Counted from the first letter of the stretch, positions 14,885 through 40,412 are shown. The stretch: 42,231 nt of DNA from Candidatus Lindowbacteria bacterium RIFCSPLOWO2_12_FULL_62_27 (GCA_001784175.1 MFPR01000035.1:1-42231); one strand, 5' to 3'. The notes: generated by a model from the letters alone, not told the origin. Made by a program: numbers and translations.

Positions 14885-15033
14885 ACGGAGGCGATAACTC
14901 AGTCCAGCTACGCGACAAGTAGCATACGACGTTGGGGAAGGCGATCTTGAAGCCAATGGTATGGATTTGCTTTTCCAGCTTGGCCGCTCCATAAAGGCCG
15001 AGAAAGTCAGTAGTCGGGCTCGCCACATCCGGA

Positions 15034-21415: not shown

Positions 21416-21422
21416 ATCGGCA

Positions 21423-21494
21423 TCACCTCAACACTCCTTCCCGGATGGCTTCCACCAGTGCATGGATATATATCATTGCCGACTCGTAGGGCAC
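21423..21494 (-). pseudogene. 23-codon mosaic relic ahead of addB
   Basis: The frame MPYESAMIYIHALVEAIREG, then VLR and stop, begins with GTG two bases after the stop of the 77-aa gene. Its 5' part (21440-21476) matches 28173-28209 at 36 of 37 bases, the end region of the 136-aa gene. Its 3' part (21419-21439) matches 25610-25630 at 20 of 21 bases, the end of the IS-split nuclease gene. It looks like a fusion scar left after duplication and internal deletion of a neighbouring block. Confidence 0.5.
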
Positions 21495-21496
21495 CT

Positions 21497-21730
21497 TTAT
21501 TCATCGTCTGCTTCGGCGTCTTCGCTGTCTGCCTTCTTCCACGCGTCCGGGTATTCCATAATCCGGGTCTTAGATTCCTTGGAAAGAAAATCCATATATG
21601 CCTTCTCTGACTGTGCACGGTCCTTCTTCGTCTCAATGTGCGCTTTGATCTCCTTTTGATTGCTCTTCAGGCGCGCATTCCCGGATTTGATGTTGGTTGT
21701 GTTCCTTTTCCGTTGTGGTTGACGCGCCAT
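21497..21730 (-). CDS. Small, highly charged protein
   Basis: This 77-aa protein (MARQPQRKRNTTNIKSGNAR at the start, acidic EDAEADDE at the end) is basic at the N-terminus and acidic at the C-terminus, probably with a long helix in between. GGGGGAG lies seven bases upstream of ATG 21730. No family is recognised. It belongs to a run of three small genes between the nuclease-RAMA gene and addB. Confidence 0.6.
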   Translation of the reverse strand: MARQPQRKRNTTNIKSGNARLKSNQKEIKAHIETKKDRAQSEKAYMDFLSKESKTRIMEYPDAWKKADSEDAEADDE

Positions 21731-21744
21731 CCTTGCTCCCCCCT

Positions 21745-22032
21745 TTATGCGTTCGGTTGTGCCCGGAACCGGCGGGAAAGATCATGGAATATCTCCCCTT
21801 TTTTGATCTTTGCATCGACAAGCCGTCGAACGGTTTTCAAATCGCCGGCGGTTGTGACATCGTCGGGGTGGATGCGATAAACGGTCACGCGGGGCATATT
21901 ATTCTTCGTCCATTCCAATTCATGAACGAACGCTATCAAGCTGTTCCCCATCGCCCGCTTCAGGTCGTGAATCTCAATACCATGACCCAATCCCTGAGGA
22001 ACGGCTTCCCACTCAACCCATTCGATTTTCAA
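21745..22032 (-). CDS. Hypothetical 95-aa protein, TTG start
   Basis: The frame begins TTG AAA ATC GAA (MKIEWVEWEAVPQGLGHGIE) with AGGGGTGA eight bases upstream; no ATG is available before homologous-looking sequence begins. The middle FVHELEWTKNNMPRVTVYRI suggests a small alpha/beta fold. It is not recognised. Spacing to the next gene is 14 nt, which supports one operon. Confidence 0.6.
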   Translation of the reverse strand: MKIEWVEWEAVPQGLGHGIEIHDLKRAMGNSLIAFVHELEWTKNNMPRVTVYRIHPDDVTTAGDLKTVRRLVDAKIKKGEIFHDLSRRFRAQPNA

Positions 22033-22084
22033 GATTCAGTCACCCCTTTGAATTCATGAAGCATAATCATCGTTGATAACTCGC

Positions 22085-22345
22085 TTAGTCGTATATCGTG
22101 GCCAGATCATCAACCAGTCCCTTCGTCATCCTTAGAATCCCCCGCTTTTCATTTTTCGGGGTACTTACCTTAATCGCCTTGAGCACATCGATGACATCCA
22201 TGCGATCCTTGGTCTCCAATCGGTCTATTCTGAGATTATCCCACTCCGACACGGTTATCTTTCCTTTGAGTACGTCGGGTAGATTCATCTCGGAATTCTT
22301 TGTGACCATTTTATAGGATGCCAGCCAGGCGATTCTCGCGGGCAT
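22085..22345 (-). CDS. Hypothetical 86-aa protein, start uncertain
   Basis: The C-terminal two thirds look like a real protein (ITVSEWDNLRIDRLETKD, then VLKAIKVSTPKNEKRGILRM). No ribosome binding site precedes either possible ATG (22345 or 22309), and coding-like sequence extends upstream without a start codon toward the stop of the nuclease-RAMA gene. It may be the remains of a longer gene. No family is recognised. Confidence 0.45.
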   Translation of the reverse strand: MPARIAWLASYKMVTKNSEMNLPDVLKGKITVSEWDNLRIDRLETKDRMDVIDVLKAIKVSTPKNEKRGILRMTKGLVDDLATIYD

Positions 22346-22387
22346 GGCGTGAACGTTTGGCGAGAATACGTTGATACGTAAATGTCA

Positions 22388-24109
22388 TCACGTTGCCCGT
22401 TCACCTCTTTTTTTCCTCACCGTTTCGTTCAAATCGTGTAGGCGCTTCCCACTCTTCGTTTGCCAGTAGAGCGGCCCCGCCACCCCATGCTCGTCTGTCT
22501 TAAGCCCATGTTTCATTAAAAGCCTTTTCGCAAGCTCGGAAATTGAATAATCCTTCCCCTCGTATCTGAGGCGATTGGACTTGGAAACGATATTTGCCTG
22601 CTCTTGTTCGAATTTCTTCTTGTGGAAGAAATATAGTGGCTCGCCGTCGAAAATAAGCCCCAGTTCCACGAGTTCGCTTAACGTGACTACTCTGCCGCGC
22701 CCAGAGATTAATGGTATCGCGAAGTCTTCAATATGCTCGGCTTGAATGACCTCCTCAATAACCTTGAAAGTTTCTCTGTGAGCTTTTAAAACCGCCTTGG
22801 CAAGAGCAATAAATTTTCCGTCAGGTGCGGTGGAGGGATTTGCGAGGGCTGAGTCTGCAGTCGTCGAACGAAATTTCTCTCTCAACTCAAGAAGCGTTCT
22901 ATTGTAACTATCGGAATCGGGAGTATTTACTTTGAACCTGTCCCATCCACGACATACCCGCCCCCCCAATATCTCCTTCGCCGCGGATGAAGGAGCCTCA
23001 AAAACATGTTCATTGACTTTTATCCCACCGTCCACAACTTCGACCTCCTTTTCGACATCTCCTCTCTTGTAGATAAGGCGGTCGCCCACACGAAGCAATT
23101 TGGCGTCAATTAAATCAATGATGGAAACCAGAGATGTACCATGGGCTTCAACACTACTTTTCGGTGCGTCCTCACCGTCTACTCTGATTTGAGTAAGCAG
23201 GTTCAGAGGCGATATTTTATATTGCTTCTTATAATGCTCCTCCTTGCGCATAATTTCCTCCACCCATTTGCTTTCAGCGGGAGATATAGCAATCCTCCCG
23301 AATCCGGCATCACTTGGCGACGAAGCGAGATTACGAAGAAACTCTTGGATGATTTCACTTCCTTGGGACGAGAGAGACGGGTGCATGGCACAGGGCTTAA
23401 GCAGCTCATCTACGAGTTGTTGATAACTGAACGTTATGAAATCAGGCGACATGGCCCGGCGCCCTTGGGATTCTTTTCCTTCGGCATCGGGGCTCAAAAA
23501 TAGGAGCGCCCGGTACAATTTGTCTGCCCGACTACATTCGGGTTCGTCGAACAGACGTCCATCTCGGGAATCTTTGTGCTTATCCTCCAAGACATATTCT
23601 GCGTACTTGATTGTCTGATCTTTGGACTCTTTAGCTTTCACCTTGTTTTCACAAATGAAAAGTAGCCTTGAATGCTCGTTGTTCATTTCCATTTCTGCGG
23701 CGATGCAAACGTCGAAGCTCAGTTTGTTATTTCGCGTGTTTGAGAGATGCACAGTCAATTCACTCTGTTGTTCGGTACTTTGAGAGTCTGGCCACACCCG
23801 GCATCGGATAAGTTTCGCCTCGACGATGTATTCCAAGGGGGGAAGATGGATCCGCGCGCGCTTCTGTATGTCATCTCCATCATCCAATGACATGGCAATA
23901 AGCAACTGCCGAAAAGGGAAATCGCCAAGTTTGTGGCTGCCTTGGGGATTTAACAACCATGCGAGAAATGCAGAATGCCAGCGTTCCAAGTGTGTTGTGC
24001 CGAGGATCGAAAGAAATCCCGTAGACTTTAGATTATTCTCGATTGAGAGAAATGCCGGGTCGACCAAGAGGTCGCAGAGCTGTTTGATGTTTCTGATTTC
24101 TTCGTCCAT
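22388..24109 (-). CDS. PD-(D/E)XK nuclease with RAMA domain
   Basis: This 573-aa protein starts with a PD-(D/E)XK nuclease fold of the PDDEXK_4 kind: HLERWHSAFLAWLLNP near residue 40, LSFDVCIAAEME and LLFICENKVKAKES near 130-165 (catalytic D and ExK), and TIKYAEYV. Near residues 355-395 GGIKVNEHVFEAPSSAAKEI and RGWDRFKV match the RAMA domain found in restriction and modification proteins, thought to read DNA modification. A restriction-like effector acting on modified DNA fits, but is inferred. GAGGTGAT with a 7-base gap supports ATG 24109. It lies in a run with a HAD phosphatase and AddAB. Confidence 0.75.
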   Translation of the reverse strand: MDEEIRNIKQLCDLLVDPAFLSIENNLKSTGFLSILGTTHLERWHSAFLAWLLNPQGSHKLGDFPFRQLLIAMSLDDGDDIQKRARIHLPPLEYIVEAKLIRCRVWPDSQSTEQQSELTVHLSNTRNNKLSFDVCIAAEMEMNNEHSRLLFICENKVKAKESKDQTIKYAEYVLEDKHKDSRDGRLFDEPECSRADKLYRALLFLSPDAEGKESQGRRAMSPDFITFSYQQLVDELLKPCAMHPSLSSQGSEIIQEFLRNLASSPSDAGFGRIAISPAESKWVEEIMRKEEHYKKQYKISPLNLLTQIRVDGEDAPKSSVEAHGTSLVSIIDLIDAKLLRVGDRLIYKRGDVEKEVEVVDGGIKVNEHVFEAPSSAAKEILGGRVCRGWDRFKVNTPDSDSYNRTLLELREKFRSTTADSALANPSTAPDGKFIALAKAVLKAHRETFKVIEEVIQAEHIEDFAIPLISGRGRVVTLSELVELGLIFDGEPLYFFHKKKFEQEQANIVSKSNRLRYEGKDYSISELAKRLLMKHGLKTDEHGVAGPLYWQTKSGKRLHDLNETVRKKRGERAT

Positions 24110-26170: not shown

Positions 26171-27557
26171 GAGAAATTGTCAAATGTTGTGGATCGCATG
26201 ATCAAGCGGCGATCCTTTCTTGCTCCTGAAATTGAACTCCATCTATGAAACGAATACCGTCCCGAACGAGTGCAACGAGTTCGGGTGCGTGAACTTTGGA
26301 CCAGCGTTTCTGCGCCGACTCCAACAACTTGAAGGCCATCATCAGCCCGGCGGTCCGGGATCCGGCGCCTTTCGTCACGCGCGTGCGGAGTTTGACGGTG
26401 GCGAAGGCCGACTCGATGGGATTGGTCGTCCGCAGATGTTTCCAGTGCGCGGCCGGGAAATCGAAATGCACGGCCAGGGCCTTACGATCCTTGAGCAGAC
26501 ACTCGGTGGCCTTGGGATATTTCGCCTGATACTCGGCCTCGAAGCGATTTGTTTCCTTGCTGAAAGTTTCCCGATCCGGCGCGTTCATAATTTCATGCAA
26601 CAAACGCTTGGCTTGGGGCTGGAGACGTTTTGGAAGTTTGTCCAGGACGTTGGCGATTTTATGTACCCAGCAGCGGCTTTCTTTGGTCTGCGGCCAAACA
26701 TTGCGGACCGCGGCCCAGAAGCCGAGCGCGCCGTCGCCGACGGCCAAGACCGGTGCTTTCATGCGGCGGCGTTTCAAATCCCGCAACACGCTTGCCCAAG
26801 ACTCCGTTGATTCGCGATAGCCGTCTTCGATTGCGACCACTTCCTTGTCTCCTTCCCTCGTCACACCGACAATCACCAGAAGACAGAGATTTTCTTCTTC
26901 GAGGCGGATCGACAGATGAACGCCGTCAGCCCAGAGATAGACATAATCTTTCTGCGACAAATCGCGCCGGCGGAATGCTTCATATTCCGCCTCCCAGACT
27001 TTTTTCAGCCGCGTGATCGTGGTCGCCGACAGTCCTTTCGCCTCATCGCCGAACAGGGCGCTCAGCGCCTCTCCGAAAGCTCCGGTTGACAGACCTTTCA
27101 AATACAACAGCGGCAAGACCTCCGTGACGTTTGCCGATTTCCGCAGATACGGCGGTAACACCACGCTTCGGAATCGTTTTCCTTCTCGCCCGTCGACGAC
27201 ACGCGGCGCCTCAATCACCACTTCACCCGACCCCACCAGCACTTTCCGCGGGCGGCCATATCCGTTGCGGGTCACCAGCGCGCGGTCTTTTGCGTCGCGA
27301 TATTCCTTCAGTCGCTGGACGTATTCATCCGTCTCGGCCTCCAACGCCTCGACGATCATCCGGCGAGCACCGCACCGGGCCAGATCATCCAAACTGACTT
27401 GCACCTCTGGCGTTTCTTTCTTCCACGTTGTAACTTTGAACATCGGCGTTCCTCCTTCGCCCGGTTCGAGCCGGGTTTTTGATTTGACACTCCGGTCAAA
27501 TCGGAAGGATACGCCGCTTTTTTGTATCACTCAATCCACAACTTTCGGTTATATCTC
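26171..27557 (-). mobile_element. IS256-family insertion sequence with 9-bp target duplication
   Basis: The element is 1387 bp. Both ends read inward from GAGA and share GTTGTGGAT, TGAT and AAGCGGCG at matching places (imperfect terminal repeats of about 50 bp). It is flanked by the exact duplication GAATTTATT (26162-26170 and 27558-27566). It encodes one transposase. A small inverted repeat GATTTGAC/GTCAAATC lies at 27481-27502, upstream of the transposase start, and may limit read-through transcription. The perfect duplication implies a recent insertion. Confidence 0.92.
26202..27443 (-). CDS. IS256-family (Mutator-type) transposase
   Basis: This 413-aa protein has the full IS256 catalytic set: VYLWADGVHLSIR (first Asp), VLAVGDGALGFWAA (second Asp), the CWVHKIANVLDKLPK C-x-x-H block, and RTTNPIESAFATVKLR (Glu). 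AAGGAGGA six bases before ATG 27443 gives the start. Length and motifs look intact, so the element is probably active. Confidence 0.95.
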   Translation of the reverse strand: MFKVTTWKKETPEVQVSLDDLARCGARRMIVEALEAETDEYVQRLKEYRDAKDRALVTRNGYGRPRKVLVGSGEVVIEAPRVVDGREGKRFRSVVLPPYLRKSANVTEVLPLLYLKGLSTGAFGEALSALFGDEAKGLSATTITRLKKVWEAEYEAFRRRDLSQKDYVYLWADGVHLSIRLEEENLCLLVIVGVTREGDKEVVAIEDGYRESTESWASVLRDLKRRRMKAPVLAVGDGALGFWAAVRNVWPQTKESRCWVHKIANVLDKLPKRLQPQAKRLLHEIMNAPDRETFSKETNRFEAEYQAKYPKATECLLKDRKALAVHFDFPAAHWKHLRTTNPIESAFATVKLRTRVTKGAGSRTAGLMMAFKLLESAQKRWSKVHAPELVALVRDGIRFIDGVQFQEQERIAA

Positions 27558-28511: not shown

Positions 28512-29135
28512 TCAATGCTTTTCTTTTCGCTCGTAGTTCGCAATTCCCCTCTTCGCTATTCGAATCGACAATTCAACAAACGTGCATTTGTCCGCTCTGA
28601 AGATTGCGTTCAGGCCGATTTCGGACTCGCGCGTTTTGGCGGCGGCGAAATACTGTTCATCTTCGAATGCGTACAGCAGGGTGGACAGTGCCTCCTGATT
28701 GCGTTTGTGGATATCGATCATGACGCTATATTCGCCACGGATGCAGAATACCGCGCCTGCGTATTCGCTCATGTCGACCACGATGCGGATCAGTTCCGAT
28801 ACGCTGTCCGGCTGGATGGCCTTCTGGGCGCATGTCCTTTTCACGCCAGCGGCTGATGCTGAGATCAACTCGAACAGGCGGTACCAGTACATGCCGTCGT
28901 CATAGAGGTGGTGGGTCAGAAAATACTCGCGGTTTTTTTGTACAAGTTTGAGACCATCCCGGGACAATGACAACAGCTCGTCGAAAAGTCTCCCGTCAGG
29001 CCGTTCGACGGTACTCCATGGCGAATCCTCCTTCCGCGAAAGGTACGCCTTTTCAAGAGCCTGCAATCTGGCCCGGACATCGGCGAAATCCTTTTCCGCG
29101 GGGATCGGGATCAGAGGCATGAGGGAGTCATCCAT
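28512..29135 (-). CDS. Hypothetical 207-aa helical protein
   Basis: The protein starts MDDSLMPLIPIPAEKDFADV and appears mostly helical, with a WYRLFELISASAAG block. No family is recognised. Its ATG overlaps the stop of the 315-aa gene by 8 nt, so the two are translated together. It is downstream of the HslV-like peptidase and may be part of that system. Confidence 0.6.
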   Translation of the reverse strand: MDDSLMPLIPIPAEKDFADVRARLQALEKAYLSRKEDSPWSTVERPDGRLFDELLSLSRDGLKLVQKNREYFLTHHLYDDGMYWYRLFELISASAAGVKRTCAQKAIQPDSVSELIRIVVDMSEYAGAVFCIRGEYSVMIDIHKRNQEALSTLLYAFEDEQYFAAAKTRESEIGLNAIFRADKCTFVELSIRIAKRGIANYERKEKH

Positions 29136-30075
29136 TCATCGTCGCCAGCCCGATGATCTCGTCGGCGGTGCGGAGGCGGGCGTCGGGGGAGTCGATGTCC
29201 CTGTCGAGGAGCGGGTCGATGTCGGGGATTTCAGCTTCGTCGTCAAAATCGAGAATGGCTTGTTCCAAGCCACCGAGATTCGTGGGGTCGGAGGGATCCG
29301 GTTTCTCACCCTGCCGCGCGTAACCCAGCCGCACGAACGCCTTCAAGTGCTCGATCAGCCGCAGGCGGGCCGGTCGATCCATGCCGATGGGCGGCAAGGG
29401 CTCGACTTTGATGCGTCCATCGTGCCAGACCGTCATGAAAACGCCGGATGCGGCGGCGACGTTAACCGCGTCGGGAATGGCGATTTGGACATCCAATCCG
29501 GCCGCTTTCAAGTTGCGATACAGTTGTTTGAGCCATTCGTGATCCAGATCCTCCTCGCGACTGACCAGAGCGTCGAAGTCAGGCTGATCGAACAGGGAGC
29601 GATTGAAGCGAGCGACACGGCCGTCCTTCAGCACGGCTTCGTACCACGCTCGCTCCGGCGTTTCGACAGCCACAATCCGCGTTGCCCGATTCTTGATCCA
29701 CGGCTCGTAGATGACAAACGCGATCATGAACTCGCGGATCCGCAGCGATTCGGCCACTGGATCCCTTGACGGAAGCCCTCCGTAGGGGAAGCGAAAAAAT
29801 AGATGGCCCCAGTCGTCGGCGCGGATGTAATAAAAGGTCCCCGCCCCGTCGCCGCTCCGCCCAAATCCAGTCAGGAGATACCCGTTCGGCGCCCTGCGCA
29901 GAAACTCCTCCGGATCGCCTGCTCGAAAGCGCGGATTCTCGCGCGCGGCGGCAGTTCCATAGATCGCCGTTCCGGGCGCAAGACGCACAAGGTCGAAGTC
30001 GTCGACCAACTGCCACGGGAATGCCCACGCCAGCTCATCGGCGAAGAGACGCTCAAGCTCGGAGGTGTCAGCCAT
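29128..30075 (-). CDS. Hypothetical 315-aa protein next to HslV-like peptidase
   Basis: The first ~110 residues (FRRAPNGYLLTGFGRSGDG-type segment, then TFYYIRADDWGHLFFRFPYG) have the aromatic, Gly-rich pattern of SUKH/SMI1-like sensor domains, but the match is weak. The C-terminal half is acidic and unassigned, ending DIDPLLDRDIDSPDARLRTA. It starts 24 nt after the peptidase gene. A substrate-binding or immunity role is a guess. Confidence 0.55.
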   Translation of the reverse strand: MADTSELERLFADELAWAFPWQLVDDFDLVRLAPGTAIYGTAAARENPRFRAGDPEEFLRRAPNGYLLTGFGRSGDGAGTFYYIRADDWGHLFFRFPYGGLPSRDPVAESLRIREFMIAFVIYEPWIKNRATRIVAVETPERAWYEAVLKDGRVARFNRSLFDQPDFDALVSREEDLDHEWLKQLYRNLKAAGLDVQIAIPDAVNVAAASGVFMTVWHDGRIKVEPLPPIGMDRPARLRLIEHLKAFVRLGYARQGEKPDPSDPTNLGGLEQAILDFDDEAEIPDIDPLLDRDIDSPDARLRTADEIIGLATMNG

Positions 30076-30098: not shown

Positions 30099-30764
30099 TC
30101 ATCGTGCCGTGGTTCTCGCAACCCGGCGGCGGCCATGATTGGACTCGACACCGGCGGCTCCATTGTTTCTCTGCGTGTTTGAACGGCCGGCATTCGATAT
30201 TTCACGTGAGACATGACGAAGTTCCATTTTTCCGCCGCAACTACGGTGGAAAAAGCAAACGGTGTTGAATGTCTGTCTCAAAATCTCGGATGCCTTCTCC
30301 AGGCGCGGATATAAAGAGTGAATGGCACCCAAGGCGATTTCATTACCGCTTCCGATGGCCGCAAAATTATCAAAAACGCAAATATCCCGGCTTGCCGCGA
30401 CTTCAAACATTCGCCGCGATGTCGCGACCATGAACGACGCGTCGCTGAGTTTCGAAATTTCATTCTCCTTTGCCGAACCGAGCGAATACCGCTCTTTGAC
30501 AAAGGCATAGACGTGCTGAAAAAAATCGGTCACATCGTGTTCGTTATCGAAAGCGCTCTCATACATATCCCTTTTCCTATCCGCGAAGTAACGCAGGACA
30601 TTTTGAAACAGGACGTTGCCTGAGCAACCTATTAACGCGTTTTTGAAACGCGTGATTTTTGTTACATCTGACCTGTCCGTACGGACAATCCACCCCCAAG
30701 CGGTCAGGCTGTCCGCCATCATCCACATCTCGCCGTTCTTTTTTACTGCCGCAATGACTGTCAT
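30099..30764 (-). CDS. HslV/proteasome-beta-like Ntn peptidase
   Basis: This 221-aa protein begins MTVIAAVKKNGEMWMMADSL: removal of Met would expose Thr1 as nucleophile, Asp of MMADS corresponds to Asp17, and Lys of DVTKI to Lys33. FAAIGSGNEIALGAIHSLY is the conserved GSG segment. It thus has the catalytic set of 20S-type peptidases such as HslV, which form stacked rings fed by an AAA+ unfoldase. The last ~30 residues are Asn/Arg-rich and unusual. It lies in the same operon as a ClpX-like unfoldase fusion and 26 nt after the small TGHxH protein. A truncated second copy of its N-terminus lies at 33939-34064. Confidence 0.8.
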   Translation of the reverse strand: MTVIAAVKKNGEMWMMADSLTAWGWIVRTDRSDVTKITRFKNALIGCSGNVLFQNVLRYFADRKRDMYESAFDNEHDVTDFFQHVYAFVKERYSLGSAKENEISKLSDASFMVATSRRMFEVAASRDICVFDNFAAIGSGNEIALGAIHSLYPRLEKASEILRQTFNTVCFFHRSCGGKMELRHVSREISNAGRSNTQRNNGAAGVESNHGRRRVARTTAR

Positions 30765-30789: not shown

Positions 30790-31098
30790 TCAATCCTCCA
30801 CCCGCTTGATCTCGCCGGGTGTGTACTCCCGCTGGCGGCGGATGCGGTAGATGCCGGGTGTGATCGTGATGGCCGCATGCTCTTCGTGGACTAGCGACGT
30901 GTCGCCGGTGACTTCGGCGTAGATATCGCCGTCGGGCGCGTCGAAGAGGGCGACCGCCGATTCGTCGCTGAAGCGATGCCGGTGTCCGGTCGCCTCGCCG
31001 TAGGCTACTGTCAGGTCGGTTCGCGCTTTGAGTTTGTCCGGCATCGGGGATCCGGTTTTTATGATTAAAACGTCGCCCTGTCGGTACTGCTCGCTCAT
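30790..31098 (-). CDS. Small DUF6745-associated protein with TGHxH and HEEH motifs
   Basis: This 102-aa protein reads MSEQYRQGDVLIIKTG, AYGEATGHRHRF, SLVHEEHAAI and YRIRRQREYTPGE. It is beta-rich and two His clusters could bind metal, as in a small jelly-roll or cupin. I recall similar small proteins beside DUF6745 genes in other bacteria, and here it follows the DUF6745 fusion gene by 45 nt. The function is unknown. Confidence 0.7.
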   Translation of the reverse strand: MSEQYRQGDVLIIKTGSPMPDKLKARTDLTVAYGEATGHRHRFSDESAVALFDAPDGDIYAEVTGDTSLVHEEHAAITITPGIYRIRRQREYTPGEIKRVED

Positions 31099-31143: not shown

Positions 31144-33942
31144 TCAAGTCTCCAATACCGGGACGTACTCTTCAGGTTTGAATCCAAATGTCCATGCGGC
31201 GGCGTGGGTGCAGGTTTTCATCTCACCTCCCGCATCCTCCCAGAGTGATTCCTCGCGATCATCCCATTTTCCGCCCGCCGCGCGTCTCGCATCGCCCCGC
31301 CCGGGCGGGACGCGAAGGAACACATCGGCCGCAAGACCCAGACGCACTTTCGCCGGATCGATCACATGCAAAATCACCATGGGCTCGTCGTCCTGCAAAT
31401 AGATACGATAGAGTTTTCGCGGATTGCCCGCCGTATCCCGGTCTTCGTCCAGAACCGCCGGGGACGCCTCGCGAATGAACGAAGCCAGACCCTTGCGCGC
31501 GATCATCAGCCGCCGTACTTCAGCGTTCTTCTCGTTCAGGATTGTCTCGGCCGAGAGAGATTGCGGATCGTTGATCACGACGGGAGGCACAACCACCCCC
31601 CGGTATCGATAAATCTCAAGTCCGTCGCTCAATACCGCGGCCGGTCCGCTTTCTGAATGCAGACGATTCCCGGTCTGATCCACATCAATCTGTTTTGGGC
31701 GCGTCACGATGAAAACGGTCTTCTCCAATGCAAGAAATGTCCATCCTCCGCTTGCGTAGAACTGCTTCATAAAAGCCGCCTCTTTGCTGATTCGCTCAAG
31801 CTCGGCCTGCAAGGCGGCATCGCAGGGATCGGTTGATTGAAAATGCCGGGCGGCCAGGACCGAAAATATGATGTGATTGGACATCACGCGTTTGAGATCC
31901 CAGTAGCAGAAGAATTTTTGGGCGGATGTCAAATTCGGCGTGTCAGCGGTGGTAACCGGAACGTTGCTGTTAAAATGCATTGTGTTCATAATTTTGCCGA
32001 GCGCTTCGTTAACGGATTTCAGAAAAAGATCGCTGTCGTGAACCTGGCTGCAGATTCGTCTCAACCCGCCGGCCAGCATCGGATCAATGAAGATCGCGTC
32101 GTTTAATGCGTGGAGGGATTGCACGCAGGGATGCCTGCTCAACGCGTCCGTGACATGCCGGCCCAACGCCGTGAGGTACATTTGGGACGATTCTCTGCCA
32201 AATGTCGAATAGAGCGCCCGGGCCGGCGCTCCCGAGAATCCGATTTGGGCAAGAAGGTTGTAATTCTCCATTTTCACTTGATCGGACGACGGATGATCTC
32301 GTCCGCAAGCGCCCTCGCGCGTGTGCGACTGCTGGAAGTCCCGGGCGACTTCTGCGGCGATGAGGGGCGCGGCCGGGTGCGAGCAATAGACGATGTCGGC
32401 AGGCAGGCGTTTGCCGTGGATTTCGTAAAAATCGGAGATGGCGTCGAACAGCGCCACTTCATCCACGGCGGCTTGGGAGAGCAGGTCCGTCCAGTCCGAC
32501 ACAACGGAATTGACCATCCCGGTGTCCTCTTCAAACCACAATCGTGCCGGAGATGCGGCGGCACGCGGTTCGGATTGAACGGGACGACGAATCGTTCCAT
32601 CGTGCGATTGAACGGGCACGTTATTCGGGATTTCGTGCCGGCATAGGACGAAACATTTCCGGAAATATTCGGGGACATAAGCGTTGACCAGATTAAAAAA
32701 CGGGCGACGCAGTTCGAGCGAACGAACTTCGAAGATGATTTCAGAATAATATTTCTCCCCGAGCCTTGCCAATTCTTCTTCAAATGCGATTTTTTCCGGC
32801 GCGGATGAAAACTCGATGATGCCCGCGCCATTTACTGTCTGAATATTGCGGAGCAGGGCATTCTCCTGTTTGTCCGACAACGAAACAACCTGCAATATGC
32901 CGTTCTTGCCCTGAAGGCCGGAACAAATGGACGGTGCAAGCGCCCGGCGAACAGCCCCGAGGGAATCAGTCCCATCGGACCGCACAAAGGCGTCCAGAAT
33001 GGTCAGGGTGTCAACAATGGGAATGCGTTCCGACAACAGATCTTGAAACAGCGCGTGTATCTGGTCGAGCCCGAACTTATTGACCGCCATACCTACCATC
33101 AGCTCGTCATCTGCTTTTGCCTTGTCCAAGAGCAACTGTGTCTGGTCCATTGAGAAAAGGGACGCTGCGTGTCGAGCCGCGAATTCAAACAAATGGGAGG
33201 ACATTACCACCGCCGGCTCCGACAGATAATAACCGGATTTCTCGGCGAGTTCCCGCTGGTCGGGCTTGATCCAAATGGCCGGAGCATGAAACAGCCGCTC
33301 GACATACGGAATCCCCTCGATCTCATGCCCTCCCCCGTCGGTTTTCACGGCCAGTACTCTCTCCGGTTCAACGGTGCCGGATTCGATCTGCCTGCCCTTC
33401 AGGAGAAGGGTATATTCCTTTGGCCGAAGTTTCAGGTCATCCCGGATACGGACGGACGGCAGGGTCACACCGAATTCATTGGCGAACCGGGTTCGGACGT
33501 TGCTCACTGCATCAAGGAATCCGTCGGGCCCCGATTGTTCACGATCTACAAGGGGAATCAGATGGTAGGCGATATTGACTTCGAGCTGTTCGACGGATTT
33601 GGGGGTGATCTCATTATAGAAATAGGTCCGCGCCGGCCGATCGATTCGATAGATGAACGCCAGCACCTCGGCCACTGGCTGATAATATTCGGATGGTATC
33701 TCCTCATCAACTTTGACCTTTCTGCATAGAAGGTGCGCGAGGCCCGCATATTCATAATTCGGCAGACCGATTCGCTCTGCGAGCCGAATGACATGCTTGG
33801 CGGTCCTGCCTGACCACTTCCCAATGACACGCGGAGTTTTATCCTGTTCGGGTCGATATGAAATCGCGACCGCCGGACCAGTCCCGCCAAAAATGAGAAC
33901 GTCGGAATCGTTCTTTGGTTGAATTCGAACGTCCATCGTCAC
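31144..33942 (-). CDS. FlhB_C - FlhA_C - DUF6745 fusion protein
   Basis: This 932-aa soluble protein has three parts. Residues ~13-105 resemble the FlhB/YscU cytoplasmic switch domain (VAISYRPEQDKTPRVIGKW, HLLCRKVKVDEEIP, AEVLAFIYRID). Residues ~145-345 resemble the FlhA cytoplasmic (FHIPEP) domain (TLPSVRIRDDLKLRPKEY, GIPYVERLFHAPAIWI, FQDLLSERIPIVDTLTILDA). Residues ~490-932 are DUF6745 (GNRLHSESGPA, NAEVRRLMI, WTFGFKPEEYVP). In flagella these gate domains bind export substrates and chaperones at the membrane; here no transmembrane helix and no NPTH autocleavage site exist. A GTG start at 33942 is favoured by GGGGA upstream; ATG 33936 is the alternative. It lies between the ClpX-like fusion and the HslV-like peptidase. 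Confidence 0.78.
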   Translation of the reverse strand: MTMDVRIQPKNDSDVLIFGGTGPAVAISYRPEQDKTPRVIGKWSGRTAKHVIRLAERIGLPNYEYAGLAHLLCRKVKVDEEIPSEYYQPVAEVLAFIYRIDRPARTYFYNEITPKSVEQLEVNIAYHLIPLVDREQSGPDGFLDAVSNVRTRFANEFGVTLPSVRIRDDLKLRPKEYTLLLKGRQIESGTVEPERVLAVKTDGGGHEIEGIPYVERLFHAPAIWIKPDQRELAEKSGYYLSEPAVVMSSHLFEFAARHAASLFSMDQTQLLLDKAKADDELMVGMAVNKFGLDQIHALFQDLLSERIPIVDTLTILDAFVRSDGTDSLGAVRRALAPSICSGLQGKNGILQVVSLSDKQENALLRNIQTVNGAGIIEFSSAPEKIAFEEELARLGEKYYSEIIFEVRSLELRRPFFNLVNAYVPEYFRKCFVLCRHEIPNNVPVQSHDGTIRRPVQSEPRAAASPARLWFEEDTGMVNSVVSDWTDLLSQAAVDEVALFDAISDFYEIHGKRLPADIVYCSHPAAPLIAAEVARDFQQSHTREGACGRDHPSSDQVKMENYNLLAQIGFSGAPARALYSTFGRESSQMYLTALGRHVTDALSRHPCVQSLHALNDAIFIDPMLAGGLRRICSQVHDSDLFLKSVNEALGKIMNTMHFNSNVPVTTADTPNLTSAQKFFCYWDLKRVMSNHIIFSVLAARHFQSTDPCDAALQAELERISKEAAFMKQFYASGGWTFLALEKTVFIVTRPKQIDVDQTGNRLHSESGPAAVLSDGLEIYRYRGVVVPPVVINDPQSLSAETILNEKNAEVRRLMIARKGLASFIREASPAVLDEDRDTAGNPRKLYRIYLQDDEPMVILHVIDPAKVRLGLAADVFLRVPPGRGDARRAAGGKWDDREESLWEDAGGEMKTCTHAAAWTFGFKPEEYVPVLET

Positions 33943-34064
33943 ACCAGTTCCCCTTTCCGCTGGGGATCAGATCGATCAGTGCTGGAAACCCATCCCCAGG
34001 ACGTTAGGCCGGCCGCCATCATCCACATCTGATTGTTCTTATTCAGAGCGGCTATAACGGTCAC
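33939..34064 (-). pseudogene. Truncated HslV-like N-terminus coupled to ClpX-like gene
   Basis: A frame starting with GTG that overlaps the ClpX-like stop (GTGA) reads MTVIAALNKNNQMWMMAAGL and TSWGWVSSTDRSD, matching the start of the intact peptidase over 33 codons (about 70 percent of bases, many third-position changes). It ends soon after, before the Lys33 equivalent, at a TGA just before the next gene. The Asp17 equivalent is Ala. It is a remnant of a second, diverged subunit once coupled to the unfoldase. Confidence 0.7.
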
Positions 34065-36595
34065 TTCGAACCCCCATCAAAATCTTTTCGATACATCTTT
34101 TCGGTCACGATTCGGTGCCCTGCCGACAACGAAAGCCACACATCGACTTCAGATTCCGACAGGACCGCGATGCCGTCATTCTCCGGCGATAGAATCTCAT
34201 AAATGGCCCGGCGGGTTGTTGGTGGAGCGATTATAACCGGCCGCCGGCCGACAGATTTTGTGGCGGCGATGCTCTCGGCGAAAAACGACTTTGCTTGCTC
34301 CGCAGCCTCCGGCGAACTCATCTCCGCCTGCGTTGCGACACCGGCTTCAATTGCATGGAGAACTCCATCTGTGCCGGCCAGGCGGTCGCAGATGATGGGC
34401 GCCAACACGTGCCGCACCCGCTCGACCATCTCCGAGAGGGGCGCGTTTGAATCGAGCGATAGGAGTGTGTCCAATATAAGTGTGATGTCCTTGATGGGCA
34501 CATGTTCACGCACCAATTCCCGCAAAACGGATGTGACTTTCCTGGCTCCGATGCCTTTTTCGACCTCCTCCGCGAGCCTGGCGCACTTGTCTTTGACGAT
34601 ATCAAGAAGGCTTTCGGTGTGCTCTCGCGAAACGAGCAACCAGGCATTTTGGCGCAACGCGTGCTCCAAGTGTTTTGCGATGACTGTAGGAGGGTCGTAG
34701 ACGGTACAACCGGCTTGGAACGCCCTGACAGCATCATCTGGATCGATCCAAATCCCAGACTGCCCGCTGACCGGCTCCCGCACCACGTCACCTCGAAACT
34801 GCGTTGTCGCGGGGCCGATCGCCATCAGCCGATCTGGCCGTAACTCACCCCGGCCTCGCCGCATGCCTCTGATCAGAATCTCGTAATAACGGGGCGGTAG
34901 GGAGTGAGATACTCTTGTTTCAACTTGCGGAAGGATCAGGCCAAACTCGTTCGCTAAACGAAATCGAATTTGGGCGGACACATCGGCGAAGAACATAGGC
35001 TCAAGTTCATATTCGGTCAGAATATGGACATCTGTCTGAGCAACACTTTCCTCAATTTCCGTCCCTCTCTCACGCCAAATCTTGGGATCAGGCCGCCCGT
35101 GAGCCCTGTCGAAGGCGAGCGCATCCCGATAAACGTCATTTAAGGGCCCACGAAGTGCCGGTTGAACCATCTGGTCTTCGATACAATTATTCCACAACGC
35201 TGTCATCAGGATTTCGTCCGATTTGACGATTTTACGATATTTTCGGGCCCGTTCGATGAGTTTGTCCGCTTTGGCACCGGTCCATTTGGCCTTGCAGACA
35301 GGTTGGACGACACGCAGAGGCTCCATTCGTTCGAGTATGCTGCCGGCTTCGGATGCCTGAGGACACAACTCATAATCGACAGCGACGACTCGCCGGTTCG
35401 AAGTAATCAAGAACTTGAAAGATAATTTCCTGACCTCAGCGGCACTGTCCTCATCAAGCGAATCCGCCTCCAGTTCGGTTTCCTGGGCGCCTGACCCGGC
35501 CGACTCGGGAACACATCTAACGCGACCCTCCTCGAGTTTGACGTTGACAACTGTCGAAGACTTTACAGGCAGAAGGTCGTACATCACAGGTTCGAGTTCT
35601 TTGGCGAGGAGTTGCTGGAGCCCACGCGCGCCTATTTGTGTCTTCACAGCAGTGTGGACGAAGTGGCTGAATACCGCCGGCTCGATGTTCAGCTGCAAGC
35701 CATCTTTTGCAAACTCCGCCGCCGCATGTTTCGATGCCTCCGACTGGACGATGGCAAGCAACGTCTGTTCATCGAGCGGGTCAAACGTGACGACGCGCCG
35801 GAACCGTGCGATCAATTCCGGCATAAACCCGAATTTCTTAAAATGCTCGATGTTATCGATCTCCTCTTCGGTAAAAGCTGCGGCAATCTGTTCGGAGTCG
35901 GATTTGTCCGCAGCACCTAAAAATCCGATGTTCGGCCCGCCATGAATGGAGCGTACGGCAGTCTTGAATCCAGAGAACGCCCCACATGCGATAAATGAAA
36001 TGTGGGATGTCGACATTTGAAAGGACGGATCGTCGTGCCCTTCAGGTACATCGACGCGAGCGCCGTCGAGCATCTTTAGAAGCTCCCGCTGGACACCGTA
36101 TCCGCTGACATCCTGATATTCGCTGCGTTTCCCGGCAGTCTTGTCGAACTCATCCAAGCAGACGACACCACACTCGGCCTTGAAGCGGTTCCCATCAGCC
36201 ACGGTTATCAGGCTCTTCAGAATCTTGATTACATCCATACCGTGATAGCCTGTCTGTGAATAATTGGTCATATCAGCGATGAACACCGGGACTTTGAGAA
36301 TTTTAACAAACAGCAGATCCACCAGATGGGTCTTCCCGCTGCCCGTGGGTCCCATCATGAGGTAATTGAGTTTCGGCGGGCCGACGACCGCATGTCCAGC
36401 ATCTTGATTGGCGGCCGCATATTGCTTGATGCGCTTGATATGCCGGTGCGCCATGAGACACAAAGCCCGGCGGGCCCGCACCTGCCCTCGATACCCCAGT
36501 GACTCCAGTTTATCGAACAATTCTTTCGGTGAAGGCACGACCAACTTCCTCGCCCATTCCCTGAAGGTTTCCCTGTCCTCGTCTTCGTCAGCCAC
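34061..36595 (-). CDS. ClpX-type AAA+ unfoldase fused to FlhB_C and FlhA_C domains
   Basis: This 844-aa protein (GTG start at 36595, AGGGGTGA eight bases upstream; a TTG at 36625 is possible) begins with a ClpX-type AAA+ module: Walker A GPTGSGKT (82-89), pore loop GYHG (116-119), Walker B VVCLDEFD (144-151), an IGF tripeptide at the position of the ClpP-docking loop (223-225) and sensor-2 GARGL (322-326). The ClpX zinc domain is absent. Residues ~398-505 resemble FlhB_C (VCKAKWTGAKADKLIERARK) without NPTH. Residues ~535-745 resemble FlhA_C (LANEFGLILPQVETRVSH, LRELVREHVPIKDITLILDT). It probably unfolds proteins for the HslV-like peptidase in the same operon, with gate domains as receptors; this is inferred. 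Confidence 0.8.
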   Translation of the reverse strand: MADEDEDRETFREWARKLVVPSPKELFDKLESLGYRGQVRARRALCLMAHRHIKRIKQYAAANQDAGHAVVGPPKLNYLMMGPTGSGKTHLVDLLFVKILKVPVFIADMTNYSQTGYHGMDVIKILKSLITVADGNRFKAECGVVCLDEFDKTAGKRSEYQDVSGYGVQRELLKMLDGARVDVPEGHDDPSFQMSTSHISFIACGAFSGFKTAVRSIHGGPNIGFLGAADKSDSEQIAAAFTEEEIDNIEHFKKFGFMPELIARFRRVVTFDPLDEQTLLAIVQSEASKHAAAEFAKDGLQLNIEPAVFSHFVHTAVKTQIGARGLQQLLAKELEPVMYDLLPVKSSTVVNVKLEEGRVRCVPESAGSGAQETELEADSLDEDSAAEVRKLSFKFLITSNRRVVAVDYELCPQASEAGSILERMEPLRVVQPVCKAKWTGAKADKLIERARKYRKIVKSDEILMTALWNNCIEDQMVQPALRGPLNDVYRDALAFDRAHGRPDPKIWRERGTEIEESVAQTDVHILTEYELEPMFFADVSAQIRFRLANEFGLILPQVETRVSHSLPPRYYEILIRGMRRGRGELRPDRLMAIGPATTQFRGDVVREPVSGQSGIWIDPDDAVRAFQAGCTVYDPPTVIAKHLEHALRQNAWLLVSREHTESLLDIVKDKCARLAEEVEKGIGARKVTSVLRELVREHVPIKDITLILDTLLSLDSNAPLSEMVERVRHVLAPIICDRLAGTDGVLHAIEAGVATQAEMSSPEAAEQAKSFFAESIAATKSVGRRPVIIAPPTTRRAIYEILSPENDGIAVLSESEVDVWLSLSAGHRIVTEKMYRKDFDGGSK

Positions 36596-36743: not shown

Positions 36744-39173
36744 TTACCCCTGGTTGAACACGGCTTCTCTCACTGGCTCGTCTATGCTCTCGAACCGGGA
36801 TGAACTCAATATTTCGGCGACTGCGCTCCTCGGTTTCGGATATCGCGGCGATGCGCCGAACGGCGATATTCGAATCACGTCCTTTGGTGGCGGCTCAAGC
36901 CATACAACCCAGTCATCAGCGAGTTTCCTTTGCGACATCAATCCGGCAGCCTCATCGAACAAGGCACGGTAAATCCTGGCGCGCCGGGCATCTTTCATCG
37001 CTTCGTATGCCAGCGACAGGCCACGGTGGGGATGAGCGTTGGAAGGATCGTCGGCGAGCGCGCGGTGGAAGCATTTAGCGGCATCGTGGTTCTCTCCCGC
37101 GCGAAGGTGGACTCCGCCGAGCAACATCCAGACATAGCTTGCGAATGATGAGCGAATTCCACCTCTCTTGCCCCGGCTCTTTTCAACATCCGATCGTGTC
37201 AGAAGCGGCCAGCGCTCGAAGACCGGCCGCATGGGCCGGGGTGACCTGGCGATTTCGGCGAGAACCTGATCAAGGCGGATTCTGGCATCGGCATCCCGTC
37301 CACGGAAAATCGCGATCTCCGCCAAGTACAGCCACGTGCGGACTTCATCGACCTTGACGTCCAGTGCACGTTGCGCGGCGCGCTCGGCCTGATCATACCT
37401 GCCCAGCAAGATGCAGAGCCGGACGATCCGGCGGATGTTGTGGACATCCGACGGATTGACCTTGCATCCGATATCCGCCCATTTAACAGCCTGTTCGTAC
37501 AGCCCCCGGTTGCGGAACGAATCCGATACCCATCCAATGGTAAATGAATTGCTCGGGTCGATCCGATAGGCCTTCATGAGGACCTTGTCGGCGCGACCGT
37601 TGTCGCCGACGTCACGCAAGACACGCGCAAGACGTTGAAGGGTGCGGACATTGCGGGGGTCGAGCCGGTGCGCCTTTTCCATCCATTCAAGTGCTTTGGT
37701 GTATTTTTTCATGCCTCGATAAACATAGGCGATCTGCCTGACCGCCCACTGATTTTTTGGGATAATCTGATGGCACTTCATGAACCACTGGATCGATTCA
37801 TCCCAGGCGCGCATATCGCGGCAAATATATCCCATCTGCGCTATTGTGCTCGCGTTGTCGGGGTCGATTTCGAGTGCGCGCTTAAGCCACTCCTTGGCCC
37901 GGGTGAAATCGTTTCTTTCACGCTCAAGGAACGACATTTCATTGAGATTGCCGACGTCACGGGGGTCAAGCAGATACGCCCTTTGGAGCCAACGAACGGC
38001 TTCGTCGAACCGGCCGAGTTTGCGGTTGACCTCGCCAACCTTTGCGTAACCGACAGGATCGGCCGGCTGGAGGGCGATGGATTTTTCCAGGAAGCGGAGG
38101 GCGAGTTTTTCGTCCACTCGCCACATTTCGATCGCGGCGATACGGTAGACATACGGATCCTTGGACCTGAGATTGCCGAGCAACCGCGCTTCGCGCCGCG
38201 CCTCATCCAGCCGCCCGCTTCGCCGGAGGATTTTGACAAGAAGCAGTCTGGCGAACACGGCTGTCAGCCTGTCCTCGATACATTCGCGGACCATTTCCTC
38301 CATCTTGCGGTCGGGGTTCAAAGTACCTTGCAGAGTCGCCATGCCCCAAGCGACCTTCCATATTTTTTGTCTCGGAAATTTCTCCGCGAATAATTTGTAC
38401 TGACCGATGACCGACGGCATTCCGAGTTCCTGGCGACATCGAATGTCCATCCATATCGCCGGAAGATAGGTGGGATGCGATTTGAGAACCCGGTCCAGTA
38501 AGAAAAGCGCGTAATCACTGTCGTATGCGTCAAATTTCCTGGCGGCCAGCCGGAAATAATAATCGTCTTTCGCTTCTTTTGCACGAGGAGCCGACGGGTC
38601 CAGAGAAAGATACTGGCCGACGATCGCTGTCCGCGCCTTGCGCTCGCCAATTCCTGAAATCCGCGCCACGGCCGGCGCCGCCAATGACGAAAACCTTAGA
38701 AACTCGTCCAACCTGCGCTGATGAATTTCCGGATCGATCAGTGCGATGGGGGGGCCCATTCTGGTCGAATCGACATTCCCGGCGTCTATGGCAGATCCCC
38801 CGCGGTCCAGGTAAGCCGTAACCTGACGCATGGCTGATGCGTGAACCGTCCCGTGGAATCTGTGTTCCAAGGAGAGAAGCGTTTCCGTCAGCATCGGGAG
38901 TTCAGCCCAGCATTCGACAGCCATCGGGATGTCAAGATCATTCTCTGCCGGGGGGATGCGAATATCACCGGGCGCAAGTTTATCCAGCCGGATTGTCACT
39001 GGGACGAGCCGGAAGGCGGGACCATCCGCCGAGCCATCTGCGCACACGGCGTGCGTCACGACAAAACTCAAGAGGTCCCGGCCGGACTTGACCGACCAAA
39101 ACTGTCCGGGCCGTATTGCGTCCGGTTCTGTTTCGGTCTTGGCCATCCGCCTCAACGTGTTTTTCGTGGTCAT
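36744..39173 (-). CDS. TPR-repeat protein with unique N-terminal domain
   Basis: This protein of about 809 aa has an N-terminal beta-rich domain (RPGQFWSVKSG, then FRLVPVTIRLDKLAPGDIRI) followed by at least ten tetratricopeptide repeats between about residues 220 and 720. Typical units are GRFDEAVRWLQRAYLLDPRD, DFTRAKEWLKRALEIDPDN and KYTKALEWMEKAHRLDPRN. TPRs bind protein partners, so this is a likely scaffold or substrate adaptor. ATG 39173 is preferred because GGAAGTGAT stands six bases upstream; ATG 39230 lacks a site. It lies between the sigma-like gene and the ClpX-like fusion. Confidence 0.8.
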   Translation of the reverse strand: MTTKNTLRRMAKTETEPDAIRPGQFWSVKSGRDLLSFVVTHAVCADGSADGPAFRLVPVTIRLDKLAPGDIRIPPAENDLDIPMAVECWAELPMLTETLLSLEHRFHGTVHASAMRQVTAYLDRGGSAIDAGNVDSTRMGPPIALIDPEIHQRRLDEFLRFSSLAAPAVARISGIGERKARTAIVGQYLSLDPSAPRAKEAKDDYYFRLAARKFDAYDSDYALFLLDRVLKSHPTYLPAIWMDIRCRQELGMPSVIGQYKLFAEKFPRQKIWKVAWGMATLQGTLNPDRKMEEMVRECIEDRLTAVFARLLLVKILRRSGRLDEARREARLLGNLRSKDPYVYRIAAIEMWRVDEKLALRFLEKSIALQPADPVGYAKVGEVNRKLGRFDEAVRWLQRAYLLDPRDVGNLNEMSFLERERNDFTRAKEWLKRALEIDPDNASTIAQMGYICRDMRAWDESIQWFMKCHQIIPKNQWAVRQIAYVYRGMKKYTKALEWMEKAHRLDPRNVRTLQRLARVLRDVGDNGRADKVLMKAYRIDPSNSFTIGWVSDSFRNRGLYEQAVKWADIGCKVNPSDVHNIRRIVRLCILLGRYDQAERAAQRALDVKVDEVRTWLYLAEIAIFRGRDADARIRLDQVLAEIARSPRPMRPVFERWPLLTRSDVEKSRGKRGGIRSSFASYVWMLLGGVHLRAGENHDAAKCFHRALADDPSNAHPHRGLSLAYEAMKDARRARIYRALFDEAAGLMSQRKLADDWVVWLEPPPKDVIRISPFGASPRYPKPRSAVAEILSSSRFESIDEPVREAVFNQG

Positions 39174-39236
39174 GGTGTTATCACTTCCATTGAGCGCGGC
39201 GCCGTTCAGACGGTACCGGCTGTTCTCCATCCATCA

Positions 39237-40412
39237 TTATGAATGTCCTTTTCCCGTAATATTCTGATACTCGTAGCAAATCCTGCAAAAATCACCGACC
39301 AGCAATTCCCGATACCTGTCATAGTATTGAGCGCCTCCACGCTCAATGCCGAGAACATTTCGAAGTTGTTCCATCGCGTTCCGGCGTTCCACGGTGGCTT
39401 GGGCATTCTGCAGACCCACGGTGATACCCAGACGCCGGGCAGACACCTTTTTCACACGCCCCGTCTTGGGATCGTGGTGCAAAGCCATAATCTCGATTTG
39501 TCGGGGCGTCAGGAAATTACCCGAGTGGACCAATCGTTCCAAGTATTCGACATGCCGCTTGTAGTCGACTGCGTCCTGAAGATCAAACGGATCCGCTTCA
39601 AGATCGAGCAAATTCACTTTTTTGGCCGGGTCGTCCGGATCCGGCCGTTCGGCCGGTACGAACGCCGGGTGGCGTTCGTCGAACAGACCCTTGATGATAT
39701 TGCAAAGTGTAGATGTACCAAGGCCGACATTCTTCCGCTCGTAGATATTGCCCGCAACGTCAAACGCTGCCTTGACGATTTCGGCGGCGTATCTCGGACG
39801 AAATTCCCGTATCCGGCTTGCTTGAAACCACGCATCCAGCCCCCGGACGAGGCAGGCACGCGCATTGGAATCCATGGGGACGAGCGGCATTCGGACTCTG
39901 GAGGCCAGAACATACATGCGGTCGGACGCTCCATGCAGGTCCACCGACCCGCTGACGGGGATCAGTTCCCCCTTGGAGGCGGCCATCTTGAAGGCTGTGG
40001 CAATCGGTTTATAGACCCTTTGATTCTTTCGATGAGAACCTTTCATGCAGCGCTCGGCCACCGTCTCCAGCGTCATCACGAACCGGCCCGCTCGGGTCTG
40101 CCCCCGACGCCGGTATTCAGGCGCGATTTTTCTGTTGCGGCCCTTGTAGCCCCTGTAAAGAACCTCCTGTGCGGCGTCAAGGACGTCCTCGTCGGTCGGA
40201 CCGTATACCTGAACATCATCTCTTTGAAACCGCCGCCAGATGCGTCTGACGGTCTCACGGTGCAATTGAACAAACCACGGAGTCGAAAAATCGGCGGCAT
40301 CCGCACTCTTAAAATACTCCTCCACCAATTCCTCGAACTGAGTGTTCGGTATCCGAGACCATCGATGTAGTCGTTGTGCTATTCGTTGGCCGCCTCCTGC
40401 CATCGTCTGCAT
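39237..40412 (-). CDS. Sigma-like DNA-binding protein heading the ClpX-like operon
   Basis: This 391-aa protein has an N-terminal helical stretch like sigma region 2 (DEDVLDAAQEVLYRGYKGRN) and a C-terminal region-4-like helix-turn-helix (NFLTPRQIEIMALHH, then KKVSARRLGITVGLQNAQAT). The middle ~150 residues are unassigned. It is about twice the length of an ECF factor and parallels the sigma-like gene at 5640-6884, which also heads an ATPase operon. The start is uncertain: ATG 40412 or 40403, neither with a clear ribosome binding site. It would control expression of the TPR and protease genes; inferred. Confidence 0.55.
   Translation of the reverse strand: MQTMAGGGQRIAQRLHRWSRIPNTQFEELVEEYFKSADAADFSTPWFVQLHRETVRRIWRRFQRDDVQVYGPTDEDVLDAAQEVLYRGYKGRNRKIAPEYRRRGQTRAGRFVMTLETVAERCMKGSHRKNQRVYKPIATAFKMAASKGELIPVSGSVDLHGASDRMYVLASRVRMPLVPMDSNARACLVRGLDAWFQASRIREFRPRYAAEIVKAAFDVAGNIYERKNVGLGTSTLCNIIKGLFDERHPAFVPAERPDPDDPAKKVNLLDLEADPFDLQDAVDYKRHVEYLERLVHSGNFLTPRQIEIMALHHDPKTGRVKKVSARRLGITVGLQNAQATVERRNAMEQLRNVLGIERGGAQYYDRYRELLVGDFCRICYEYQNITGKGHS

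Follow-up and report, generated by a model that had tools for sequence, protein, structure and literature searches.

The window analysed here, that is, the whole stretch of DNA, is the entire contig C35 (42,231 bases; MFPR01000035.1) of a 4.39-Mb genome bin from an uncultured bacterium, Candidatus Lindowbacteria bacterium RIFCSPLOWO2_12_FULL_62_27 (GCA_001784175.1). One of its genes, P0001, encodes a ClpX-type AAA+ module followed in the same polypeptide by domains resembling the cytoplasmic parts of the flagellar export-gate proteins FlhB and FlhA (FlhB_C and FlhA_C). Downstream of P0001, on the same strand, lie a remnant of a gene for a BPH-like peptidase, the gene P0002, a gene for a small RQGDV protein and a full-length BPH-like gene (Table 1). 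The architecture of P0001 had been proposed earlier from the nucleotide sequence alone (the sequence-only reading). The recognition of P0002 as a second gate fusion, of the BPH remnant between P0001 and P0002 and of the full BPH gene downstream goes beyond that proposal. Residue numbers of P0001 are counted from TTG 36625.

Table 1. Features of the window, listed from upstream to downstream
Feature	Coordinates	Strand	Remarks
TPR protein	36744..39230	-	immediately upstream of P0001, same strand; profile search
P0001, ClpX-type AAA+ / FlhB_C-like / FlhA_C fusion	34061..36595	-	844 amino acids from GTG 36595; frame open to TTG 36625
ClpX-family AAA+ module of P0001	35510..36556	-	residues 24-372; Walker A/B, GY(H)G, IGF, box VII Arg, GARGL sensor 2
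FlhB_C-like domain of P0001 (predicted)	35102..35371	-	residues 419-508; NPTH motif absent; blastp, hhalign, AlphaFold2 and Foldseek
FlhA_C-like domain of P0001	34142..34978	-	residues 550-828; almost complete; FHIPEP; dimple pair S/K
BPH-like remnant	33939..34064	-	41 codons; between P0001 and P0002; second BPH-like gene copy
P0002, soluble FlhB_C (11-97) - FlhA_C (116-442) - DUF6745 (709-889)	31144..33942	-	profile search; ortholog in nzgw232
RQGDV protein	30790..31098	-	102 amino acids; companion of DUF6745 proteins; 67% identical in sister genome
BPH-like (HslV/proteasome-fold) peptidase	30099..30764	-	221 amino acids, full length; best solved match 5ovs BPH, 1.4e-12
315-amino-acid protein	29128..30075	-	C-terminal part 33% in sister island (G001 contig C148)
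207-amino-acid protein	28512..29135	-	48% relative in sister island (G001 contig C245)

The reading frame of P0001 is uninterrupted, and GTG 36595 is preferred over TTG 36625 as its start because the purine-rich GGAAAGGGG lies just upstream. As the sequence-only reading had claimed, the AAA+ module is complete: GPTGSGKT (position 92), GYHG (126), LDEFDK (157), IGF (233) and GARGL (332) are all intact, Pfam profiles matched AAA_2 at 84-276 (1.4e-16) and ClpB_D2-small at 284-352 (6.9e-8), and solved ClpX chains align to residues 29-356 with E values down to 2.2e-45. P0001 thus shares with ClpX the AAA+ module, the Walker A and B motifs, the IGF loop and sensor 2, but it carries GYHG where ClpX has GYVG, adds the two C-terminal domains, and lacks the N-terminal C4 zinc-binding domain of ClpX, since the stretch ahead of the AAA+ match is only about 28 residues long and contains no zinc motif. 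It also misses the NCBIfam ClpX equivalog cut-off (211.5 versus 359 bits). The closest sequences to its AAA+ part are two stand-alone ClpX-like proteins from two other genomes, L006 (44% identity) and L007 (42%), whose short flanks contained no peptidase; the identity of canonical ClpX proteins is lower, up to 38% in most of the matches listed. The GC content by codon position is even along P0001, with no step across the fusion. The claim that no membrane segment is present also held, the maximum 19-residue hydropathy being 1.78 in P0001 and 3.05 in the genome's own FlhA.

The FlhA_C-like region matches the Pfam profile FHIPEP at residues 550-828 (1.7e-48; 166 bits versus a cut-off of 29.1). 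Because the profile is matched only from its position 357 onward and P0001 has no hydrophobic segment, the N-terminal transmembrane export-gate domain of FlhA is absent. After ClpX chains, the best solved-structure match of P0001 is Helicobacter pylori FlhA_C (2.6e-28). An AlphaFold2 model of the C-terminal 500 residues, computed from four sequences, was poor, with a mean predicted local distance difference test score (pLDDT) of 43.8; the best 50 Foldseek matches to this model were nonetheless all FlhA_C/SctV_C chains (top 1.8e-14). P0001 therefore resembles the cytoplasmic domain of FlhA/SctV in sequence and fold, but differs from FlhA/SctV in lacking the membrane domain, in its replaced chaperone-docking dimple, in its fusion to a motor and in its accessory location outside the flagellar locus.

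FlhB_C was not detected by the Pfam search of P0001. P0002, which has a clear FlhB_C (1.1e-17), is co-linear with P0001 across both gate domains (P0002 37-353 against P0001 442-759; blastp, 3.8e-23). With hhalign, a mixed FlhB_C alignment scored 34.5 against at most 24.7 in 60 shuffles; flagellar FlhBs alone gave 24.1 against a shuffled maximum of 23.8, which is indistinguishable from shuffles. For residues 396-512 AlphaFold2 gave a model (mean pLDDT of 67.7; about 65-85 in the core) whose elements run strand-strand-strand-helix-(strand)-helix-helix, and its top 34 Foldseek matches are SctU_C/FlhB_C domains (EscU, YscU, FlhB, SpaS and similar cytoplasmic domains), although the four-row alignment behind the model included FlhB_C-like relatives and may bias it to that fold. 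Taken together, these comparisons indicate that P0001 bears a diverged FlhB_C-like domain. In the model this domain shares the fold of the cytoplasmic domain of FlhB/SctU; it differs from the latter in the absence of the NPTH autocleavage motif and in having FlhA_C after it in one polypeptide. A separate copy of FlhB_C has a known precedent in the FlhX-type partial FlhB paralogs. FlhX (named in PMC9321776) is linked to flagella, unlike P0001. In the literature we found no published description of a ClpX-FlhB_C-FlhA_C architecture, in agreement with the sequence-only reading, whose assignment of both gate folds is likewise borne out by the models and Foldseek despite the low pLDDT of the FlhA_C part and the silence of Pfam on FlhB_C.

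P0002, the next gene downstream, encodes a second soluble gate fusion, also without a membrane segment. The remnant (frame VTVIAALNKNNQMWMMAAGLTSWGWVSSTDRSDPQRKGELV) connects the two genes: its GTG overlaps the stop codon of P0001 by 4 nucleotides (GTGA), and its stop codon overlaps the GTG of P0002 by 4 nucleotides. These overlaps suggest that P0001 and P0002, and in former times a BPH subunit as well, are made in a coordinated way. Over 35 amino acids the remnant is 63% identical to the N terminus of the full BPH-like protein (22/35 identities, E 5e-9); as a control, with both BPH loci set aside, the best match elsewhere in the window reached 10/35. The DNA is identical at 69 of 105 bases, and 12 of the 25 differing codons are synonymous. 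The Thr1 position is kept in the remnant and Asp17 is replaced by Ala. By these comparisons the remnant appears to be an old duplicate of the BPH gene.

The full BPH gene is the second gene after P0002 in the same gene run. Its product (MTVIAAVKKNGEMWMMADS...) has Thr next to the initiator Met, Asp17 and a Lys near position 33, so that the N-terminal Thr nucleophile and Asp17 are both present at the sequence level, and it carries the PHROG label 'peptidase HslV family'. BPH-like genes are rare, with 5 of 386 genomes across the tree positive at E 1e-6, and the stretches around such genes in four genomes of other phyla contained no AAA+ motor related to P0001. BPH has been described as a homo-tetradecamer of HslV descent for which no unfoldase was found (PMC5777263); no unfoldase is known, and no AAA+ gene was found with BPH (PMC5777263, PMC8665760). 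A double ring that reacts with epoxomicin is a further hallmark of BPH. In the window, in contrast to BPH elsewhere, the BPH gene stands in one operon with the gene of a ClpX-like fusion, to which a BPH remnant is translationally coupled.

Two genomes from a single GTDB family are the nearest relatives in the genome set compared; the Lindowbacteria metagenome-assembled genome (MAG) nzgw232 (JAHFCY01; G001) is one of the two. Its P0002 ortholog is 58-59% identical and is preceded, with a 4-nucleotide overlap, by a gene whose product contains HELAH...PNWLSEGLA, FlhB_C (6e-9) and a shortened FlhA_C (2e-23). HELAH...WLSEGLA follows the pattern of MA metallopeptidases, and a further copy of the HELAH fusion is found on contig C84. 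We therefore regard the HELAH fusion as a putative Zn-metallopeptidase that occupies the operon position of the AAA+ motor; two unrelated proteolysis-type modules would then sit on the same gate module. Contig C148 of this genome carries the remainder of the P0002 ortholog, another DUF6745 protein, an RQGDV protein (67%) and a HAD relative (41%), and contig C245 carries relatives of the 207-amino-acid (48%) and 90-amino-acid (51%) window proteins. These shared genes indicate that this part of the window is the counterpart of an island of several conserved genes. The sister island has a calcineurin-like phosphoesterase gene (L062:5700-6620) between the P0002 ortholog and the second DUF6745 gene; in the window this place is taken by the RQGDV and BPH genes.

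Among the matches listed from a profile search of the 386 genomes, the fused soluble gate occurs only in G000 and G001, both of this phylum. Five outlying FlhA frames from other phyla (G326, G080, G167, G098 and G258) were rejected as candidates: four of them belong to membrane FlhAs and are unusual or cut, and the fifth is truncated by the start of its contig. Scans of 84,980 GTDB genomes, confirmed by tblastn, returned nothing for P0001 and only the sister MAG for a P0002-type query; they used narrow patterns and exclude close relatives only. Viral contigs gave no match to P0001 or P0002. Plasmids searched with P0001 gave ordinary ClpX among the best matches and no record in which a single place covered 80% of the query, and phage records searched with P0002 gave partial, low-identity FlhA-like matches in unannotated records. 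Within this coverage, the search of other genomes that the sequence-only reading had suggested was positive for soluble gate fusions (in the sister MAG) and negative for the ClpX version. Other soluble gate proteins in the phylum are those of G000 contig C30 (FlhA_C, then FlhB_C) and G001 contig C343 (FlhA_C only). Their N termini are Tat-like (twin-arginine-like): MTDSRRRFLQ... in C343 (L043:6855-8036) and MDTSRRGFFQ... in C30 (L040:5286-6440), as if these gate domains were exported. An AAA ATPase gene follows the C30 gene, and proteins with a Lon-C/ChlI-like segment (GRSxALGxxLC...GD...G) are encoded near soluble gate genes (L040:154-2201 and L044:5893-7452), one of them followed by DUF7664.

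In Salmonella FlhA, the dimple formed by D456, F459 and T490 is the docking site of chaperones with their substrates (PMC8166844). The equivalents of F459/T490 are F or Y / T in 15 of 15 membrane FlhAs compared, those of Lindowbacteria included. By contrast, they are S/K in P0001, F/S in P0002 and R/G in the ortholog of P0002, while the metallopeptidase fusions have T/S and S/S and the C30 protein has S/H; among the soluble gate proteins compared, only the C343 protein retains Y/T. The NPTH self-cleavage motif is lost from the fused FlhB_C copies, in which GGTG, SETD and SKKS are aligned there and NRRV lies near that place in P0001; the membrane FlhBs in the same alignment have NPTH or NPT/NPQ variants. 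With the dimple pair changed and NPTH gone, the gate domains appear to have been freed from the constraints of chaperone-dependent export, which disfavours a simple role as a flagellar receptor. Since the docking site is not conserved, the target of P0001 probably differs from the chaperone-substrate complexes that are usual in flagella. In a tree of FlhA_C sequences the P0001 branch is very long (4.0), and long branches do not allow the origin of its domain to be placed.

Taken together, we propose, with a probability of roughly 0.5, that P0001 is a ClpX-family unfoldase with a gate-derived C-terminal module for targeting that works with a BPH-type peptidase. We infer here the unfolding activity, the docking on BPH, the gate-gate contact and the role of the gate domains as a targeting module. 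FlhB_C plus FlhA_C would replace the adaptor or N-domain role of a ClpX-family unfoldase and, together with co-translated P0002 and probably through gate-gate contacts, would select or hold a target; the AAA+ ring would unfold it, and BPH, a self-compartmentalising peptidase, would then degrade it. The pairing of an AAA+ unfoldase with an HslV-fold peptidase recalls HslUV. HslU docks through a free C-terminal tail, which is impossible in P0001 as FlhB_C and FlhA_C follow the AAA+ module; P0001 moreover is ClpX-like and has no I domain. The IGF loop is the docking loop of ClpX for ClpP, which acts as a tetradecamer with a hexameric unfoldase. A BPH tetradecamer would form two heptameric rings of ClpP-like symmetry, on which the IGF loop of P0001 may dock. 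The strongest argument for a gate module that directs proteolysis is that the sister genome has a putative peptidase in the unfoldase's place on the same module.

Several observations weigh against this proposal. The BPH copy that touches P0001 is the remnant, and P0002 and the RQGDV gene separate the full copy from P0001. The ClpX-type version of the gate fusion is a single instance in one genome. Pfam supports the metallopeptidase call in the sister genome only weakly (E 0.09-0.10), no solved structure matches it, and a search of that genome, which is 88% complete, gave no BPH match. The partner could be ClpP rather than BPH, the IGF loop being a ClpP-docking loop, and the FlhA_C of P0001, which by its very long branch evolves fast, could be decaying or a scaffold only. 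FlhA_C rings are nonamers (PMC8166844), whereas ClpX is hexameric, and the usual rings of both are therefore impossible in one complex. The best inference remains that the gate domains serve a proteolytic machine as its targeting module or its scaffold. The sequence-only reading had taken them as receptors for unfolding or degradation. Its link to degradation is strengthened by the coupled BPH remnant, the full BPH gene and the sister metallopeptidase; a receptor of the flagellar type is disfavoured by the S/K dimple and the loss of NPTH, and it is possible that the domains are a receptor for something other than flagellar complexes.

The genes around P0001 and P0002 bear on the alternatives. 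GC content is 0.549 in the window and 0.623 in the flhA region of the same genome, and third-position GC is 0.52-0.68 in windows along P0001, 0.63 in P0002 and 0.86 in flhA; the cluster is accessory, low-GC island DNA outside the flagellar locus, the genome's own flhB-flhA-flhF-type cluster lying on contig C1. Near one contig end is a serine recombinase gene (709-2511), and a large ATPase (3340-5613) is VirD4-like, or conjugation-coupling-like, by its GTGKT motif, without a profile match. The recombinase and the coupling-protein-like ATPase suggest that the contig is part of a mobile or integrative element. A defence-like block (12002-24109) encodes a GmrSD N-domain protein, a UvrD-helicase/PD-(D/E)XK (AddAB-like) pair and a PD-(D/E)XK_4 + RAMA protein, the latter a PADLOC PDC-S26 candidate. 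A Mutator-family transposase gene (26202-27530) interrupts a gene run otherwise of one direction. A protein of about 400 amino acids (39237-40412), encoded directly upstream of the TPR gene, is sigma-like by eye without a profile match, and another of about 400 amino acids (5640-6884) has a weak likeness to sigma-70 region 2 (E 0.005); both are possibly regulators of the island. A protein of about 100 amino acids with R(Q/H)GDV is repeatedly encoded beside DUF6745 proteins (30790-31098 with 31144-31821 in the window; L062:3929-4234; L078:462-1884), as a two-gene module in which the small protein has the phage family phrog_27831; in one genome of another phylum an LRR-type DUF6745-like protein adjoins an RQGDV protein. 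A literature search on DUF6745 and on FlhA_C fusions found nothing relevant.

Of the alternatives, the one that survives best, though we consider it unlikely, is flagellar quality control, in which the fusion captures export substrates, chaperones or ATPase components, unfolds or degrades them and so tunes flagellum assembly. In flagella, FlhA_C and FlhB_C do bind export substrates, chaperones and ATPase components (for FlhA_C, see PMC8166844), the genome has its own flagellar gate cluster, and P0002 retains the F459 equivalent. The loss or alteration of the dimple pair in the fusions, the missing NPTH, the location outside the flagellar locus and the strongly different composition of the genes argue against it. 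A slightly less probable alternative is a defence or conflict device in which the gate domains are an integrated decoy that, when a phage or another element attacks or mimics the export gate, senses this and triggers proteolysis. The low-GC accessory island with its GmrSD-type, PD-(D/E)XK + RAMA, helicase-nuclease, serine-recombinase and Mutator-transposase genes fits such a device, as do the relaxed export residues of the gate and an effector that varies between AAA+ and metallopeptidase while the sensor-like part stays constant. However, P0001, P0002 and the BPH-like protein had no match to the anti-phage defence models of PADLOC, proximity to defence genes is common among accessory genes, and we know of no element that targets FlhA or FlhB in a decoy-type manner.

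Somewhat more doubtful still is a remodelling chaperone without proteolysis, whose AAA+ ring acts on its partner P0002 or on assemblies of the FlhA_C type; the nearby BPH gene would then be incidental or an unrelated stress gene. P0001 and P0002 have the same domain pair and are joined by 4-nucleotide overlaps through the remnant, the coupled BPH copy has decayed, and the short flanks of L006 and L007 are without a peptidase. Against this, two BPH-derived sequences of a rare gene in one operon are unlikely to be a coincidence, and a putative peptidase is found in the equivalent place in the sister genome. An artefact or decaying gene, through accidental fusion or misassembly in one MAG, is very improbable: the ClpX version was seen once, on a long branch and in MAG data only, but P0001 is an 844-codon open frame with even codon-position GC and intact motifs, and an independent MAG has the same kind of fusion in a related island, where the partner gene is 58% identical.

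In conclusion, export-gate domains, otherwise known within membrane secretion machines, are here membrane-free, duplicated and fused to what we predict to be two unrelated proteolysis-type modules. The fusion of a ClpX-type motor to soluble gate parts, beside a gene for a proteasome-like peptidase, suggests that secretion-gate domains have been re-used to direct protein destruction. We advance more tentatively the wider idea that a freed FlhB_C-FlhA_C unit is a general targeting and ring-assembly module with interchangeable proteolytic heads, paired with a DUF6745 gate protein. This would be a new class of targeted proteolysis, so far only in Candidatus Lindowbacteria, and would include the first dedicated BPH unfoldase. 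If gate-directed proteolysis is true, the system would be categorically new; otherwise it would be a variant of an AAA+ protease. The gate module would be recruitable for another job, providing a system for asking what FlhA_C and FlhB_C do alone, and the question whether BPH has an unfoldase becomes directly testable.

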